Assembly (NCBI RefSeq): GCF_017094505.1
Contig: NZ_CP064787.1
Coordinates: forward strand, 2,728,001-2,792,000
From: Halapricum desulfuricans
GTDB lineage: Archaea; Halobacteriota; Halobacteria; Halobacteriales; Haloarculaceae
Reading direction: 5' to 3'
DNA: 64,000 nucleotides
Positions 33,438-44,053 of this stretch are shown here, piece by piece. The notes under the pieces are model-generated. The model did not search any database and was not told the DNA's origin. It was given only the letters and a program-made list of their open reading frames with translations. The translations under genes were made by a program, and so were the position numbers. Every line of letters begins with the position of its first letter. The first letter of the stretch is position 1.

Positions 33438-33918
33438 AGTTGAATTCGATATCCTGTATCGCAGGATTCGTTTTCACGCACGTCGGTGCGTGACCGCGAT
33501 TCGCTTGTCGTTGAATGTATCATGCTGTCTATCAGCCTCAGCTTTGGCTACGTCAGTTACAATCCGATGGCGTCGTTAAATACTTTGTGTCCTCGTCTGG
33601 CTACCAATTACCGATTAGTTATACGTTTCCGGACGTACATTCAGAGCGTCTAACCCCGTGAAGAGAGGCATATATGTCTTGTCCACGAGCCAAGAATCGC
33701 CGTGAATGGCAGATAGCCGACAGTGGCGCTCGGATTGCGTCAGACGCTCGTGTGACATGGTACCACCCGACGATATACGGGCGTACGATCCCCGCAGAGG
33801 CCGATCCGTGACGCCAGATGCTCGCTCTGGATCACGCGCGTGTGTGGAAACGAGATGAAGATGAGACTGGAGATGAGACGCCGAAACGCTTTCCGACTGT
33901 CTCGCCGTCGATACCACC
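33438..33918. other. Leader and promoter region of the S-layer-type gene; otherwise no gene seen
   Basis: From 33438 to about 33555 is the likely untranslated leader of the surface glycoprotein gene. Its promoter is at 33573. Bases 33600-33918 hold no reading frame I can support; apparent frames there are antisense or low-complexity. Confidence 0.5.
33573..33585 (-). promoter_or_regulatory. Probable promoter of the S-layer-type gene
   Basis: On the minus strand AAAGTATTTAACG gives a TATA-like TATTTAA (33576-33582), with purines before it as a BRE. Initiation about 25 bases downstream, near 33553, would leave a leader of about 115 bases. A long leader is unusual for haloarchaea but fits a highly expressed surface protein. 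Confidence 0.5.
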
Positions 33919-34080
33919 ATGCCAGTCGACAGCGCAACGTGTCCCCACTGCGGGACGAGACTGACCGGCGACGACCTCGAGAAACTGACGATCAAAAGCG
34001 ACAGCATCGCGCCGATGGGGGCGGGCAAGAAAAACGACACACTGTACGTCTGCCCGTCGTGTGACGTCATTCTCGGCTAG
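33919..34080 (+). CDS. 53-residue zinc-ribbon protein
   Basis: Reads MPVDSATCPHCGTRLTGDD, a Lys/Ser-rich middle, then TLYVCPSCDVILG and TAG. Two CxxC pairs (residues 8-11 and 45-48) make a compact zinc ribbon. It is short but has clean haloarchaeal codon use and a conserved-looking layout. No ribosome site is visible. Function is unknown; such tiny zinc proteins are common in haloarchaea. Confidence 0.75.
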   Translation: MPVDSATCPHCGTRLTGDDLEKLTIKSDSIAPMGAGKKNDTLYVCPSCDVILG

Positions 34081-34166
34081 ACAGATACTGTCGTCCCCGC
34101 CGAATCGACGCGACGGTCGTCCCCGATTCCCTCACAGCGGTGCGACGAGCCGAGCGCCCCGACCGG

Positions 34167-34790
<624 letters not shown>

Positions 34791-36860: not shown

Positions 36861-37056
36861 GTCTGGCGTCTCCGGGCGGTGTGATGTTAAACGCTCCCTT
36901 CGGTGTCCGACCCGGGGTAAACCAGATATCGATATATAGAATTCGCTCTGTCGCTGTGAAGTCCCGCCGTTCTCGGAAGGAAGTACCGCGACGTCTGCCG
37001 ACCTCGCATGGCGTTCTGGCGCAGGTGACTTCCGGCCAGAGAGCGAACGAACACCC

Positions 37057-39602: not shown

Positions 39603-39752
39603 GCACATTAATAATGTTGATCGGGGCTGATTGACGTTTCGGTGTCGATACGGGAGGGCGAAGAGCGCCCACAGGTTCGGAAGATAGGGCGTTCTACAAA
39701 TGAGCCAGGGGTGAATTGGGCTGAATTGTCGTGAGATCGCTAATCTGTTATA

Positions 39753-39769
39753 ACAAGTCGAGGACTTGT
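39753..39769. repeat. Perfect 7-bp palindrome in the island's left flank
   Basis: ACAAGTC-GAG-GACTTGT lies between the esterase start and the truncated transposase. TAATCTGT (39741-39748) and ACAGATTA (39830-39837) also pair around it. It may be the transposon-end or transcript-end structure of the old IS. Confidence 0.35.
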
Positions 39770-39857
39770 GGCGAAACCATAAGAATTCAATCAAAATGGC
39801 GAGAATTTGCGTCGAGCGTCTACAGATTAGACTACCGAAAAAGAGCGAGCGCCAGAA

Positions 39858-40782
39858 TTAGACCGCTCTGTCAGGCGGGTCTAATCCATCCATGATCATC
39901 AGGATAAGGGATGATCCAAGAAAGTCTGCCAACGTCAAGATTGGATCTAGACGATCCTCGTGTGGTCCTCGGCCGTAGTCATCGTACGCTTCACTTGCGA
40001 TCTCCTTCAGGGAGTGATCAACAATCCGCCACATATTGTAGAGCAACGTACTGAAGACGAACGAGAAAAATCGCATTCGGTAGTCTTTCGACGCGATCGA
40101 CGGCACCATTGGCAACACCATTCGATATTCGTTTTCGATATCCCATCTGTGTGAATATCGATTCGTCAAGTCTTCAGCGTCCATCGGCGTCACATTGTCA
40201 CAATTCGTTGCGAAAAGTGCATATCCTGTATCATTAGCATTCCGGATGATCCAGTCATTCCGGTCTGCTGGCACGTGCATAAACGTCACGTCGTGGCTAT
40301 AATTATCCTCATCAACATCGGGATCCGACTCTGTGTCAATATATGGTGTGTTGTCACGCAGGTGGAGCGCTGCATCTTGTTCGACACGTGCCGTCACAGC
40401 TGGATCGTCACGTACTTCTTCGGCTTGTCCCCGGAGGTGTTCTGAATCCTCTTTCTTTGGAATCAGGTAGTCAACATCGTGCCGCTGATCGAGTACGTGG
40501 AATACCCCGTGTTGATCGAACGCTTTGTCAGCCATCACGAGATCGATATCCACGAGGTCGGTTGCTTGTTCCATCAGCCGATCAACGACTTCTGCCCACG
40601 AAACTGACCTTCCGTCCCCATCCTCCCAGACAGAGTGATGCCGGACTGGTTCGACAGCCAATATCAGCGGAACGTTATTTGAAACAATTGTCAGTGTTGC
40701 ATACTGGTATTCGTAGACATCGTCTTCCTGGGTTCCATTCACCATCCTTGGATAGTCATCCTTGGGAACCTTCTCTTTACCA
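39858..40782 (-). pseudogene. DDE transposase, N-terminal part missing
   Basis: The frame reads from the IS6-type boundary at 40782 as KEKVPKDDYPRMVNGTQEDD and continues about 300 residues to a TAA at 39858. Visible catalytic segments are DLVMADKAFDQHG (second Asp) and NRYSHRWDIENEYR, the Y-x2-R-x3-E signature of IS4-type elements with the Glu. The first Asp and the N-terminal domain are gone: the frame stops exactly at the neighbouring element's terminal repeat, so insertion plus loss of the far side is the best account. The internal ATG at 40745 is not the true start. Confidence 0.8.
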
Positions 40783-41345
40783 GGTACTGTCTAGTTCAGC
40801 ACCTCCTCAGCTGGAGTCGAGCCATCTAACGCTTGGTTCAGTCAATTGCGGTTGTAGTAGTGTCTAAAGCGTCTCAACTAGCGTTTCGCGCTTGATTGAC
40901 TGCCCCACCAGAACGAGTGAAAGCGGTTGATTCGCATAGCGACAGTCTGGAACCACTTTTCGATGTGGTTCCGGTCGTGATAGGCAAGATGACCGCTCAG
41001 ATCGTGACGAGAAGGGCAATCAGGTGGCCACCAGCATCGACAAGAAACACTGTGTCGCCGACATCGTGTTTCTCAGTGAGGCGGTGAAGAGTTGCCGTCC
41101 TCAGAAATATCTGATTTCTGCATGTGCGAACAAGAGCGTCGCTCTCGTTAACGCCGCGGGGTCGGTCCCGCGGCGGCTGAACACCTCTACTTCCAGTAGG
41201 AGTTTTGATTCCGTGTCGATAGCAGCGTAGAGCCACTTCTTTTCGCCGTCTACTTCGATTTGTTTCTCATTGACTGCCCCACGACGGCAGCGCTGTCGCC
41301 GGGTCGCTCTGTGTTTCAGCGAGTGTCTCTTTCCAGTACCAAATC

Positions 41346-41813
41346 CAGAGTGTCATAGAACCATTCACAACCCATTTTCTTACTCTTGTTATTCGCTGAA
41401 TCAGCCGGTAGATAGAAGGTGCGTATGTTGCACTGGCAGTCAGTTCAGATCGAGGTCGCCGGATCTCTCAGTCACCGGGCGTCCCGTTCAAGCACGTTCG
41501 TCGACAAGTGCGCTGATTTGACGGAAGAGAAGTATCGACGCCACAACGGATCCGATAACTATGCCAACGCGAACTCGGAACGCTACAAAAGAAACGAAGA
41601 AAACAAAACCAGATTGAGCAACCCACAAAAGCGACCGACTGAACCACCCTAAATTTTGACCGCCGTGAATCGACATATTGCGTTGTTCTATCTGAGCCAT
41701 ACTAGTCTCCTTGCACAACTGCAGTGAAAATCTTTCTAGCGAAGAATGAAAGATGTCCACGTTGTCTCTACCAATTGGCAGATTGGGTATGCCAACTGTT
41801 CTATGACACCCTA
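41346..41813. mobile_element. 468-base insertion element with inverted ends and 11-base target duplication
   Basis: The ends are CAGAGTGTCATAGAAC and, inverted, TAGGGTGTCATAGAAC, 14 of 16 matching. The host sequence AGTACCAAATC flanks it on both sides (41335-41345 and 41814-41824), and removing one copy restores the IS6 reading frame. No transposase is inside; a 70-residue frame is the only candidate gene. It behaves like a MITE or other non-autonomous element moved by an IS whose ends match. Confidence 0.85.
41488..41700 (-). CDS. Possible 70-residue membrane protein within the 468-base element
   Basis: The frame starts MAQIEQRNMSIHGGQ and has two hydrophobic stretches (LLWVAQSGFVFFVSFVAF and VGIVIGSVVASILLF) with an Arg between them, ending in a polar tail. 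It lies wholly between the inverted ends. An AT-richer element could contain this by chance, so it is uncertain whether it is expressed; if real it is a passenger membrane peptide. Confidence 0.35.
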   Translation of the reverse strand: MAQIEQRNMSIHGGQNLGWFSRSLLWVAQSGFVFFVSFVAFRVRVGIVIGSVVASILLFRQISALVDERA

Positions 41814-42058
41814 AGTACCAAATCGCTTGATGACAGCGATCGACACCCAACCAGTCTAAGACGGCCTCGACTTCATGTAATGAGAACCCCATCGAGTGAC
41901 GTCGAACCGCGAAACAACGTACGGGTGTCGGCGTGCCACTCGTTCTCCCAAACGTCTTGATTCTGTACGTCTAAACGTTCTCTGGGGAGGTCTGCGAGTT
42001 CCATAATCGGTTCTCGCTACGGCCATCTCACCTCTCAATCCCTCAACTAGACAGTGCC

Positions 42059-42273
42059 TGTCGGCAGGATCAGAATAGAGACTGAAACCAAAGCAGCTCC
42101 TTCAGACCTTGAAAACAAGGACAGCGCCAAGTTTTCAGGATCGGTCTGGCCGAACTTCCCGAGAGGGGAGGACGTCCCCGGAGAGGATACAAGTCAGCAG
42201 AACCGTCATCCGATGGATGCTCTGAAGAATTAACTGAAAGTTTAAGAGGAAATGGGGGAAAAAACCCCAGTCT
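42059..42273. other. Short spacer after the lipoprotein gene
   Basis: No supported gene. On the minus strand the lipoprotein stop is followed at 42250-42270 by CTGGGG-TTTTTT-CCCC, a stem with a T6 loop that may end the transcript. The missing N-terminal half of the truncated transposase is not found here. Confidence 0.4.
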
Positions 42274-43560
42274 TTACTGTTCTTCCTCTTCTTCCCAGGT
42301 CCAGAGGTCGGATTCTCTGTACTTTTCAGGTAATTTAACTCCTTCATCGGGATAGGCTTTTTCCGGCCAGTGACTTTCTGGTATACCCCAGTTGAAAGTG
42401 TCCTTCTTGTGTTCCTCGTATCCCACGTTGATGGCCCAGAGTTCTTTTTCCGTACTTTCTGCTATCTGGTACGGGTTTTCTCCCGTTCCCTGTTTGAGGT
42501 CTTCTTCTATCTCTGATCTTGTTCCTACCCTGATGTATGTTTCCTCGTCTATGGGTATGTCTTTGCCGTACGGTGTCGGCAGTGTGTTGTGGAAGAACTC
42601 TGTCAGGTTCTTGAGGATCTCCACTTCCTGGTTGAAGGTTTCGTTCTCCAGCCAATCCTGTGTCTCTCCGACTGTCTCTATTCCTTCTCTTGTATATCCG
42701 ATCTTGCCGAACCAGTCTTTCTCTGCCTCACGCCGGTCGTAATCTATTATCATCGTATCGTTGTTGATATCAGGCGGAGAACCTGCTATAAGCCATTTAG
42801 GGTCATCGTATTCTTCTCTTGTTCCTCCTTTTTCCACACCTTCTCTCCATTTTTCGACTCCTGTTGCCGCTCCTATCTGGAGCTTGTCTTCTTTCCAGAG
42901 TTCGACCAGTGCATCGAAAGAGTGAAGAGGTTGTTCTTCTCTGTCTCTATGCCTGAATGCCAGGTGTGCTCCTCCTCTTGACATGTGTTTGATCCAGTCT
43001 CCGTCCTTTTTCTCGAAGTTGGCCCCGTATAGTTCTCTTCCTCCAGTAATTCTACGGGAGAGAATCAGTTCATCGATGGAGTAGTCGAGTTCGTTGTGCA
43101 TGACCTCCCTGAATGTTCTGACCTGTTGCCACGGGTTACCTAATCCCTCACCTTCACGAGCTTCCCATTTCGCTATCTGATTGAGCTGTCGTATCGGTTG
43201 GCCCGGTACAAATGCCTGTAGTTTATCCTTCTGATAATCATTGAGGTGGTCGGTGTCCTGGTTGAATGTTTCCCTGTATATCTCCTCGAAGCCGTGTTCC
43301 ATCTCCGCTACTTCGACTCCGGCGATTGTCTCACGTTTCTCGGTGGTAGTTTCCTCTGTAGTATTTTCTTCTGTGGTAGTTTCTTCTGGTGTCTCCGTAC
43401 CTTCCGGTGTTTTTTCTGGTGTGCTCTCCGGTTTCTCTGTGGTCTTTCGGGTCGTGGTGGTGTCTGGCGGTGTGTCTGTTCCGTTGGAGTCGTTGTTGCT
43501 GGAGCACCCGGCAACTGCTGCTACTCCAAGGGTTGCGAGGAGTTCCCGGCGAGTCTTCAT
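42274..43560 (-). CDS. Tat/lipobox lipoprotein of unknown function, foreign composition
   Basis: A 428-residue protein starting MKTRRELLATLGVAAVAGC: twin Arg followed by a hydrophobic core and a lipobox Cys at 19, so it is probably exported folded and lipid-anchored. Residues 20-80 are a Thr/Glu/Pro spacer. Residues 85-428 are a soluble Trp/Tyr-rich domain with many Glu/Lys that I do not recognise (EKDWFGKIGYTREG; SHWPEKAYPDEG). Arg is mainly AGA/AGG, and third positions are AT-rich, unlike neighbouring genes. The C-terminus ends WTWEEEEEQ. Transfer from a lower-GC halophile is likely. Confidence 0.75.
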   Translation of the reverse strand: MKTRRELLATLGVAAVAGCSSNNDSNGTDTPPDTTTTRKTTEKPESTPEKTPEGTETPEETTTEENTTEETTTEKRETIAGVEVAEMEHGFEEIYRETFNQDTDHLNDYQKDKLQAFVPGQPIRQLNQIAKWEAREGEGLGNPWQQVRTFREVMHNELDYSIDELILSRRITGGRELYGANFEKKDGDWIKHMSRGGAHLAFRHRDREEQPLHSFDALVELWKEDKLQIGAATGVEKWREGVEKGGTREEYDDPKWLIAGSPPDINNDTMIIDYDRREAEKDWFGKIGYTREGIETVGETQDWLENETFNQEVEILKNLTEFFHNTLPTPYGKDIPIDEETYIRVGTRSEIEEDLKQGTGENPYQIAESTEKELWAINVGYEEHKKDTFNWGIPESHWPEKAYPDEGVKLPEKYRESDLWTWEEEEEQ

Positions 43561-43583
43561 ATAGTTGCTACTTGTCGGTTACT

Positions 43584-43592
43584 CATATATTT
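43584..43592 (-). promoter_or_regulatory. Probable TATA box of the lipoprotein gene
   Basis: On the minus strand AAATATATG lies about 24-32 bases before the ATG at 43560, consistent with a leaderless message. Confidence 0.45.
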
Positions 43593-43679
43593 CTATTGGA
43601 CACTAGGGCGGTGATACAGAAGCCTTCACGCTCCCTGAGTTGTCCGATCTTGGTTTTTGAGTGAGACGCGATTTTCGAC

Positions 43680-43937
43680 CTAGTACGAGTGATGATTGCG
43701 TCCGATCATTGTCTTGGGTAATACCGTCTGATGATCGAAACCCGCTAAGTGAGGCCTAAAGACGATTTGATTCGTGAAGTCAATGTACGACCAGTGACCA
43801 CTATACATGAGATTTTGATCATATAGGTGGATTAAGTGGCCTTGGGCGTGGGTAGTGCCCTCATATATGTCAGCTGTATAGTGCTTTGTAGGTTTCCGTC
43901 TTCCGAACCTGTGGAGCGCCACCCCAAGCAATTTCAT
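43680..43937 (-). CDS. Histidine-rich orphan reading frame
   Basis: An 85-residue frame with about nine His and many aromatic residues (GHLIHLYDQNLMYSGHWSYID; GFDHQTVL; GRNHHSY). It is not acidic, unlike nearly all haloarchaeal proteins. It could be a fragment of a degraded phage or IS gene, or chance. No promoter or family is recognised. Confidence 0.3.
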   Translation of the reverse strand: MKLLGVALHRFGRRKPTKHYTADIYEGTTHAQGHLIHLYDQNLMYSGHWSYIDFTNQIVFRPHLAGFDHQTVLPKTMIGRNHHSY

Positions 43938-44053
43938 ATATCGATTATTGGTTTATTACAGATAGTCACTGCCCGCCACCAGACAAGCGAGGGCTGCCAC
44001 AAGAGGACAGGAGGCAGCCGACATTTATGGTCGATCCCCGCGACTGTACACGC

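Follow-up and report, generated by a model that had tools for sequence, protein, structure and literature searches.

Cargo-carrying, site-selective transposons are already known. The Tn5053/Tn402 res-site hunters carry cargo and enter a defined site in one preferred orientation, in some cases directly upstream of a recombinase gene (PMC7765201), and Tn7-like transposons are site-selective and carry defence genes (PMC8649781). The closest case to the family described here in the open-access papers searched is the surface-protein passenger gene Hlac_3088 of a haloarchaeal transposon in Halorubrum lacusprofundi, likened by its cargo alone (PMC10544981). Haloarchaea also hold unclassified transposases of ~600 amino acids, one of which is annotated as ISNCY in Haloarcula sp. 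JP-L23. Nesting as such is ordinary in these organisms, where elements inserted into elements are common (PMC3119063). Intramolecular transposition in the IS6 family causes deletions, and the flanking repeats are lost in the process (PMC7986276). What appears to be new at the present locus is a targeted family of cargo transposons, of which the locus holds a damaged member.

The window, that is, the whole 64-kb stretch analysed, corresponds to positions 2728001–2792000 of the single-contig 2.94-Mb genome of Halapricum desulfuricans. A sister genome of the same genus (G001) aligns with it at ~95% up to 39669 and resumes at 43914 with a 7-b overlap, GAGCGCC, which is present as a single copy in this empty site. 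A clean empty site was obtained from this sister genome only. The bounds of the outer transposon (39670–43913, 4244 b) are taken from the comparison. It is bordered by CACAGGTTCGGAAGA at both ends in inverted orientation, a perfect match (15/15), and by a 7-bp target duplication (7/7), and both ends and the duplication lie exactly at the alignment break. A CTACAAA-like box accompanies the 15-bp end on either side. From left to right, the interior contains a transposase remnant, an IS6 element and a gene for a lipoprotein-like protein of 428 amino acids (Table 1). The initial annotation had described an IS4-like element with the transposase half expected beyond 42058 absent; the element is not, however, a small insertion without its far side, for both ends survive, and it extends to include the 428-residue gene.

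Table 1. Features of the outer transposon, its target and the elements nested within it (positions in the window)
Feature	Position	Strand	Basis or remark
Left copy of target duplication, GAGCGCC, outer transposon	39663..39669	.	Occurs once in the empty site of G001
Left terminal inverted repeat, CACAGGTTCGGAAGA, transposase 3′ side	39670..39684	+	Perfect match to right end
CTACAAA box, left end	~39694–39700		
C-terminal ~307 aa of ~620-aa DDE transposase	39858..40782	-	PF01609, 26.9 bits; alignment to full-length relatives
IS6-family insertion sequence, decayed gene on minus strand	40783..42058	.	Inverted repeats; alignment to intact copies
Palindromic repeat of ~54 b, PATE-like, inside IS6	41098..41151 (about)	.	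Present in the 2464 kb copy
Left copy of 11-bp duplication, AGTACCAAATC	41335..41345	.	Single copy in intact IS6
MITE-like element, exactly 468 b, ends ~AGRGTGTCATAGAAC	41346..41813	.	Inverted ends, duplication
Small membrane-protein-like reading frame in MITE, ~70 aa	41488..41700	-	DNA match in G002
Right copy of 11-bp duplication, AGTACCAAATC	41814..41824	.	
Cargo gene, 428 aa, lipoprotein-like	42274..43560	-	Reading frame, signal
CTACAAA box, right end	~43885–43891		
Right terminal inverted repeat, cargo side	43899..43913	-	Perfect match to left end
Right copy of 7-bp target duplication	43914..43920	.	G001 empty site
Target motif, AATTTCATATATCGATTATTGGTTTAT, 27 bp	43930..43956	+	37.9 bits; 16 b outside the element

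The outer element apparently belongs to a widespread, undescribed transposon family; we found no description of it in the open-access papers searched. The end pattern occurs in 97 of the 391 genomes of the class, compared with one match for a reversed control pattern, and in relatives the same end is found ~190 b past the transposase stop. Intact relatives, 5.9–19.3 kb long, are cargo transposons that share these ends and in most cases have 7-bp duplications. Both ends together with a 7-b duplication were located for elements of 5923 b (Halomarina halobia), 6601 b (Halobacterium sp. KA-4 and Halobellus captivus), 8969 b (a Halobacteriales MAG) and 19.3 kb (G106). The 7-bp duplication is seen in the window, L113, L118, L120, L123 and G106; it is 6 b for the 17.4-kb element of G019 and 8 b for the 6601-b copy in Halopenitus (L119), and a matching duplication is absent in G091, H. 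roseum and G200. For several relatives no 5′ end turned up within the fetched loci, the 5′ ends of G106 and G019 lying farther out, and a de novo search for the ends of the compact relatives was largely without result. In G200 (C3:429463-463571), two family ends face each other 34 kb apart, with the motif described below on one side and no matching duplication; this pair is possibly a very large or rearranged member of the family.

The 6601-b element is common to several genera in nearly identical form. Four copies at different sites differ by 3–19 bases, and a fifth is located on a plasmid of Halobaculum roseum, where its transposase is annotated as a hypothetical protein. It contains only a DDE_Tnp_1 transposase, two regulators and a heavy-metal ATPase; TniA/B/Q and resolvase genes are not in it. 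Other members carry secreted proteins, some with TSP3 repeats. In the G019 element the cargo includes a short Argonaute and the nuclease that partners it, as well as Hma-like and DUF1156 methylase genes, and in that of G106 a LmuB-like ATPase (Lamassu-like) and a Schlafen-type protein; all of these are named from profile matches and their functions are predicted. The family shares with Tn5053/Tn402 its cargo and its oriented insertion at a defined site, at times close upstream of a recombinase gene. It differs from them in having one DDE_Tnp_1-type transposase in place of TniABQ and resolvase and duplications of 7 bp rather than 5 bp, and its target motif is only a candidate recombination site. 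With Tn7-like transposons it has site selectivity and defence cargo in common; from these it differs in the transposase and in having no TnsABCD-type gene set recognised as its core. The transposase is related to the unclassified ~600-residue enzymes, whose compact relatives have similar ends and the CTACAAA box but no cargo (2.1 kb in L085).

A rare motif of 27 bp, RATTYGRTATAGCGATATAYGRTTTAT, lies ~16 b from the insertions. Ten of the 13 sites collected first have it 16–18 b outside one end, and the weight matrix was built from those ten sites, which had been inspected by eye. The weight for the motif is carried by a held-out test on another 66 ends, which had been identified solely through the end pattern: the motif is present 14–20 b outside 34 of them and inside the element in none. 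About half of the ends is the most that could be expected, because each element has two. Random windows from the fetched loci contain the motif in 7 of 20,000 cases, and 138 kb of other loci gave no independent match. The spacing is fixed (mode 16 b), and 44 sites show no variation at positions 8–9, 23 and 26. The motif shows a weak dyad symmetry; the two-arm, 6-b spacer rule for archaeal dif sites, as taken from papers, is not clearly fitted.

The empty site of G001 has the motif at the same spacing. Within the 64 kb of the window only two places score at least 17 bits, the occupied target and a second copy at 36917–36943 (minus strand, 35.4 bits). The second copy is unoccupied, conserved in G001, inverted relative to the occupied one and located 56 b before a small membrane-protein gene. 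The motif lies beyond the transposase-distal end in the cargo clade and beyond the transposase 3′ end in the compact relatives; in the window it is outside the cargo end. Four motif sites are 120–150 b upstream of tyrosine-recombinase genes, and others adjoin housekeeping genes, namely RidA in the window and RIO2 kinase in L113. In the latter locus, the RIO2 kinase gene is located between two inverted motif copies (1990 and 3081). Sites without the motif frequently adjoin other insertion sequences. At the 3′ flanks in L119, L120 and L089, the 6601-b element abuts the end of another insertion sequence with a ~600-residue transposase, which suggests that the same target was used repeatedly.

In close relatives, the transposase frame is 629–662 amino acids long and a winged-helix gene sits divergently directly upstream in every case. 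The minus-strand DDE frame of the window is open from 39858 to about 40781/40782, and this junction, the IS6 repeats and the 468-b split are all located where the initial annotation placed them. Full-length relatives align unbroken across 40782. A transposase naturally starting at this point, which had been named as the case against insertion, was not found. The remnant scores 26.9 bits with PF01609 (DDE_Tnp_1), against a Pfam gathering score of 23, and the full-length transposase of L120 scores 23.2 bits. Assignment to ISH3 (62 bits for the window and 60.4 bits for full-length L120, NCBIfam cut-off 225) and to IS4 (30 bits, NCBIfam cut-off 115) was rejected. The second D and the E are kept and the first D and the N-terminal part are gone; judged by alignment, the missing part would include the region of the first catalytic aspartate.

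No N-terminal half and no winged-helix gene were found to the right of IS6 in the window. The half, reported absent from the start, has no match anywhere else in the genome, and the genome contains no other copy of this transposase. Inversion or translocation of the missing half is ruled out by the lack of a match, and the IS6 copy at 2464 kb is ruled out as an inversion partner, its flanks containing no piece of transposase. As both ends of the outer element survive, the deletion was internal to it. IS6 sits where the N-terminal half, the winged-helix gene and perhaps cargo were lost.

The inverted repeats of IS6 extend over 40781–40799 and 42042–42060. After subtraction of the MITE and one copy of its duplication, the element is ~797 b long, within the family range of 700–890 b. 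Uninterrupted copies of the kind proposed as a check are present in the same genome at 2463923–2464718 and 33546–34291 and align to 40783–41345 plus 41815–42058, the window copy matching in pieces. The intact 33 kb copy encodes an IS6-family transposase (172.7 bits, NCBIfam IS6 cut-off 125). The element resembles the archaeal clade of IS6 (PMC7986276) in the transposase of this intact copy, its length and its short inverted ends; it differs in its decayed gene, the missing 8-bp duplication and the two elements inside it. Besides the 468-b insert, several stops and frame changes interrupt the gene, and the copy differs by 9% from the nearest one in its own genome. No 8-bp target duplication surrounds it (flanks CTTTACCA versus TGTCGGCA); such a duplication is usual for IS6 but can be lost, and was not used to decide membership. 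Its absence could be plain decay. The two other main IS6 copies (G000:C1:2463923-2464718 and 33546-34291) are likewise without target duplications.

The ~54-b palindromic repeat inside IS6 is present in the 2464 kb copy and absent from the 33 kb copy and the 2030 kb copy of G001; from this distribution it entered the IS6 lineage earlier, before the 468-b piece. Similar repeats recur in many haloarchaea, and one of the repeats adjoins a presumed TnpB-like fragment. The nest thus comprises four elements. The three levels and their order had been recognised correctly, relatives being unbroken across 40782 and intact IS6 being unbroken at the 468-b site, and the fourth, ~54-b piece, older than the 468-b one, had been missed.

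The 468-b piece has the inverted ends (15 nt), the target duplication and the lack of a transposase of a MITE. By description it is similar to haloarchaeal MITEs of the ISH2 kind (PMC3119063), which are short, with inverted ends, a duplication and a small non-transposase reading frame, but its ends match another set. A candidate active partner is a 330-residue DDE transposase with the same ends in G032 (L098); no active partner with these ends was found in its own genome, where an ends-only relative is located at G000:1133501-1133929. The small reading frame has a 90% DNA match in G002, in which the frame is kept open. In L107 (375-1527), ends of this type surround a 257-residue gene, which we take to resemble a CPBP-type membrane protease.

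The following account is, we believe, very probably correct. A transposon with a ~620-residue DDE transposase, a divergent winged-helix gene and cargo would have inserted beside the 27-bp motif with a 7-bp duplication. The empty site, the ends and the motif establish insertion at the marked site; the step itself would be cut-and-paste. IS6, already carrying the ~54-b repeat, would then have entered the transposase gene, and a deletion beside it would have removed the N-terminal half and its neighbour. The MITE evidently entered IS6 last. The transposon would thereby be stranded with no transposase of its own, although its intact ends could still move with one supplied from elsewhere. The initial annotation attributed the loss to a deletion or to IS–IS recombination; the loss itself is evident, and for its route we infer, most simply, intramolecular (cis) replicative transposition of IS6 or recombination between two IS6 copies, which would look the same. 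Given the 9% divergence of IS6 from the closest copy in the genome, its entry into the transposon might predate the arrival of the transposon at the present site, the move then being due to transposase supplied in trans.

This divergence of IS6, set against flanks only ~5% from the sister genome, together with two perfect ends, would also fit an outer element that arrived already wrecked, IS6 entry and deletion having occurred elsewhere and a trans-acting transposase having moved the product. The genome contains no other copy of the transposase, however, and the remnant is still an open frame, and we find such an arrival rather unlikely. It is quite improbable that the left and right halves derive from separate transposons which IS6–IS6 recombination brought together. 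The lack of a duplication around IS6 and of any DNA shared between the right half and relatives would fit such a joining, but matching ends with a matching target duplication are expected of one element, and joining two would normally mismatch the duplication. A clean empty site comes from a single sister genome, which could be taken to mean that the 4.2-kb stretch is no more than a strain-specific indel of the ordinary kind, its ends and duplication being due to chance. With agreement of 15/15 and 7/7 exactly at the alignment break, and the same ends beside the transposase in many genomes (97/391, one control match), this explanation is refuted and retains practically no probability.

The motif could be an AT-rich sequence of promoter type, tolerated by many elements rather than recognised as a target. 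A TTTAT box and the location of some sites upstream of the housekeeping genes for RidA and RIO2 kinase are consistent with a promoter. Against it stand the fixed spacing and invariant positions in 44 sites and the rarity of the motif, at two per 64 kb and 7/20,000 random windows, and we regard the promoter explanation as unlikely.

We favour insertion at a recognised target, and a broader picture can be proposed tentatively, at somewhat less than even chances. Haloarchaea may own widespread target-selective cargo transposons that use rare recombination-type sites and move defence, metal-export and surface-protein genes between genera, in parallel to the Tn7-like and Tn5053-like elements of bacteria; the window would hold a stranded member whose transposase IS6 destroyed. 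Little is known of how archaea exchange defence systems and metal pumps, and clearly bounded, target-selective transposons with Argonaute, Hma-like and Lamassu-like genes would supply a concrete vehicle. With its motif and ends, the family lends itself to tests in a laboratory haloarchaeon and might also serve as a genetic tool.

The window shows the death of such an element, IS6 removing the transposase and the cargo gene staying. The cargo protein has a twin-arginine/lipobox-type signal, a Thr-rich linker and a body without a known domain. It has no match in Pfam, NCBIfam, PHROGs or PDB and a single weak match (26%, E 7.7e-6) among the 391 genomes; because the gene is without a close relative, the element as it was before the deletion cannot be seen. 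No cargo relatives were found in plasmids and no relatives in viral contigs. Upstream of the cargo gene, a 150-b stretch (43605–43757) is 70–73% like intergenic copies flanking a histidine-kinase gene at other places in the genome and in sister genomes.
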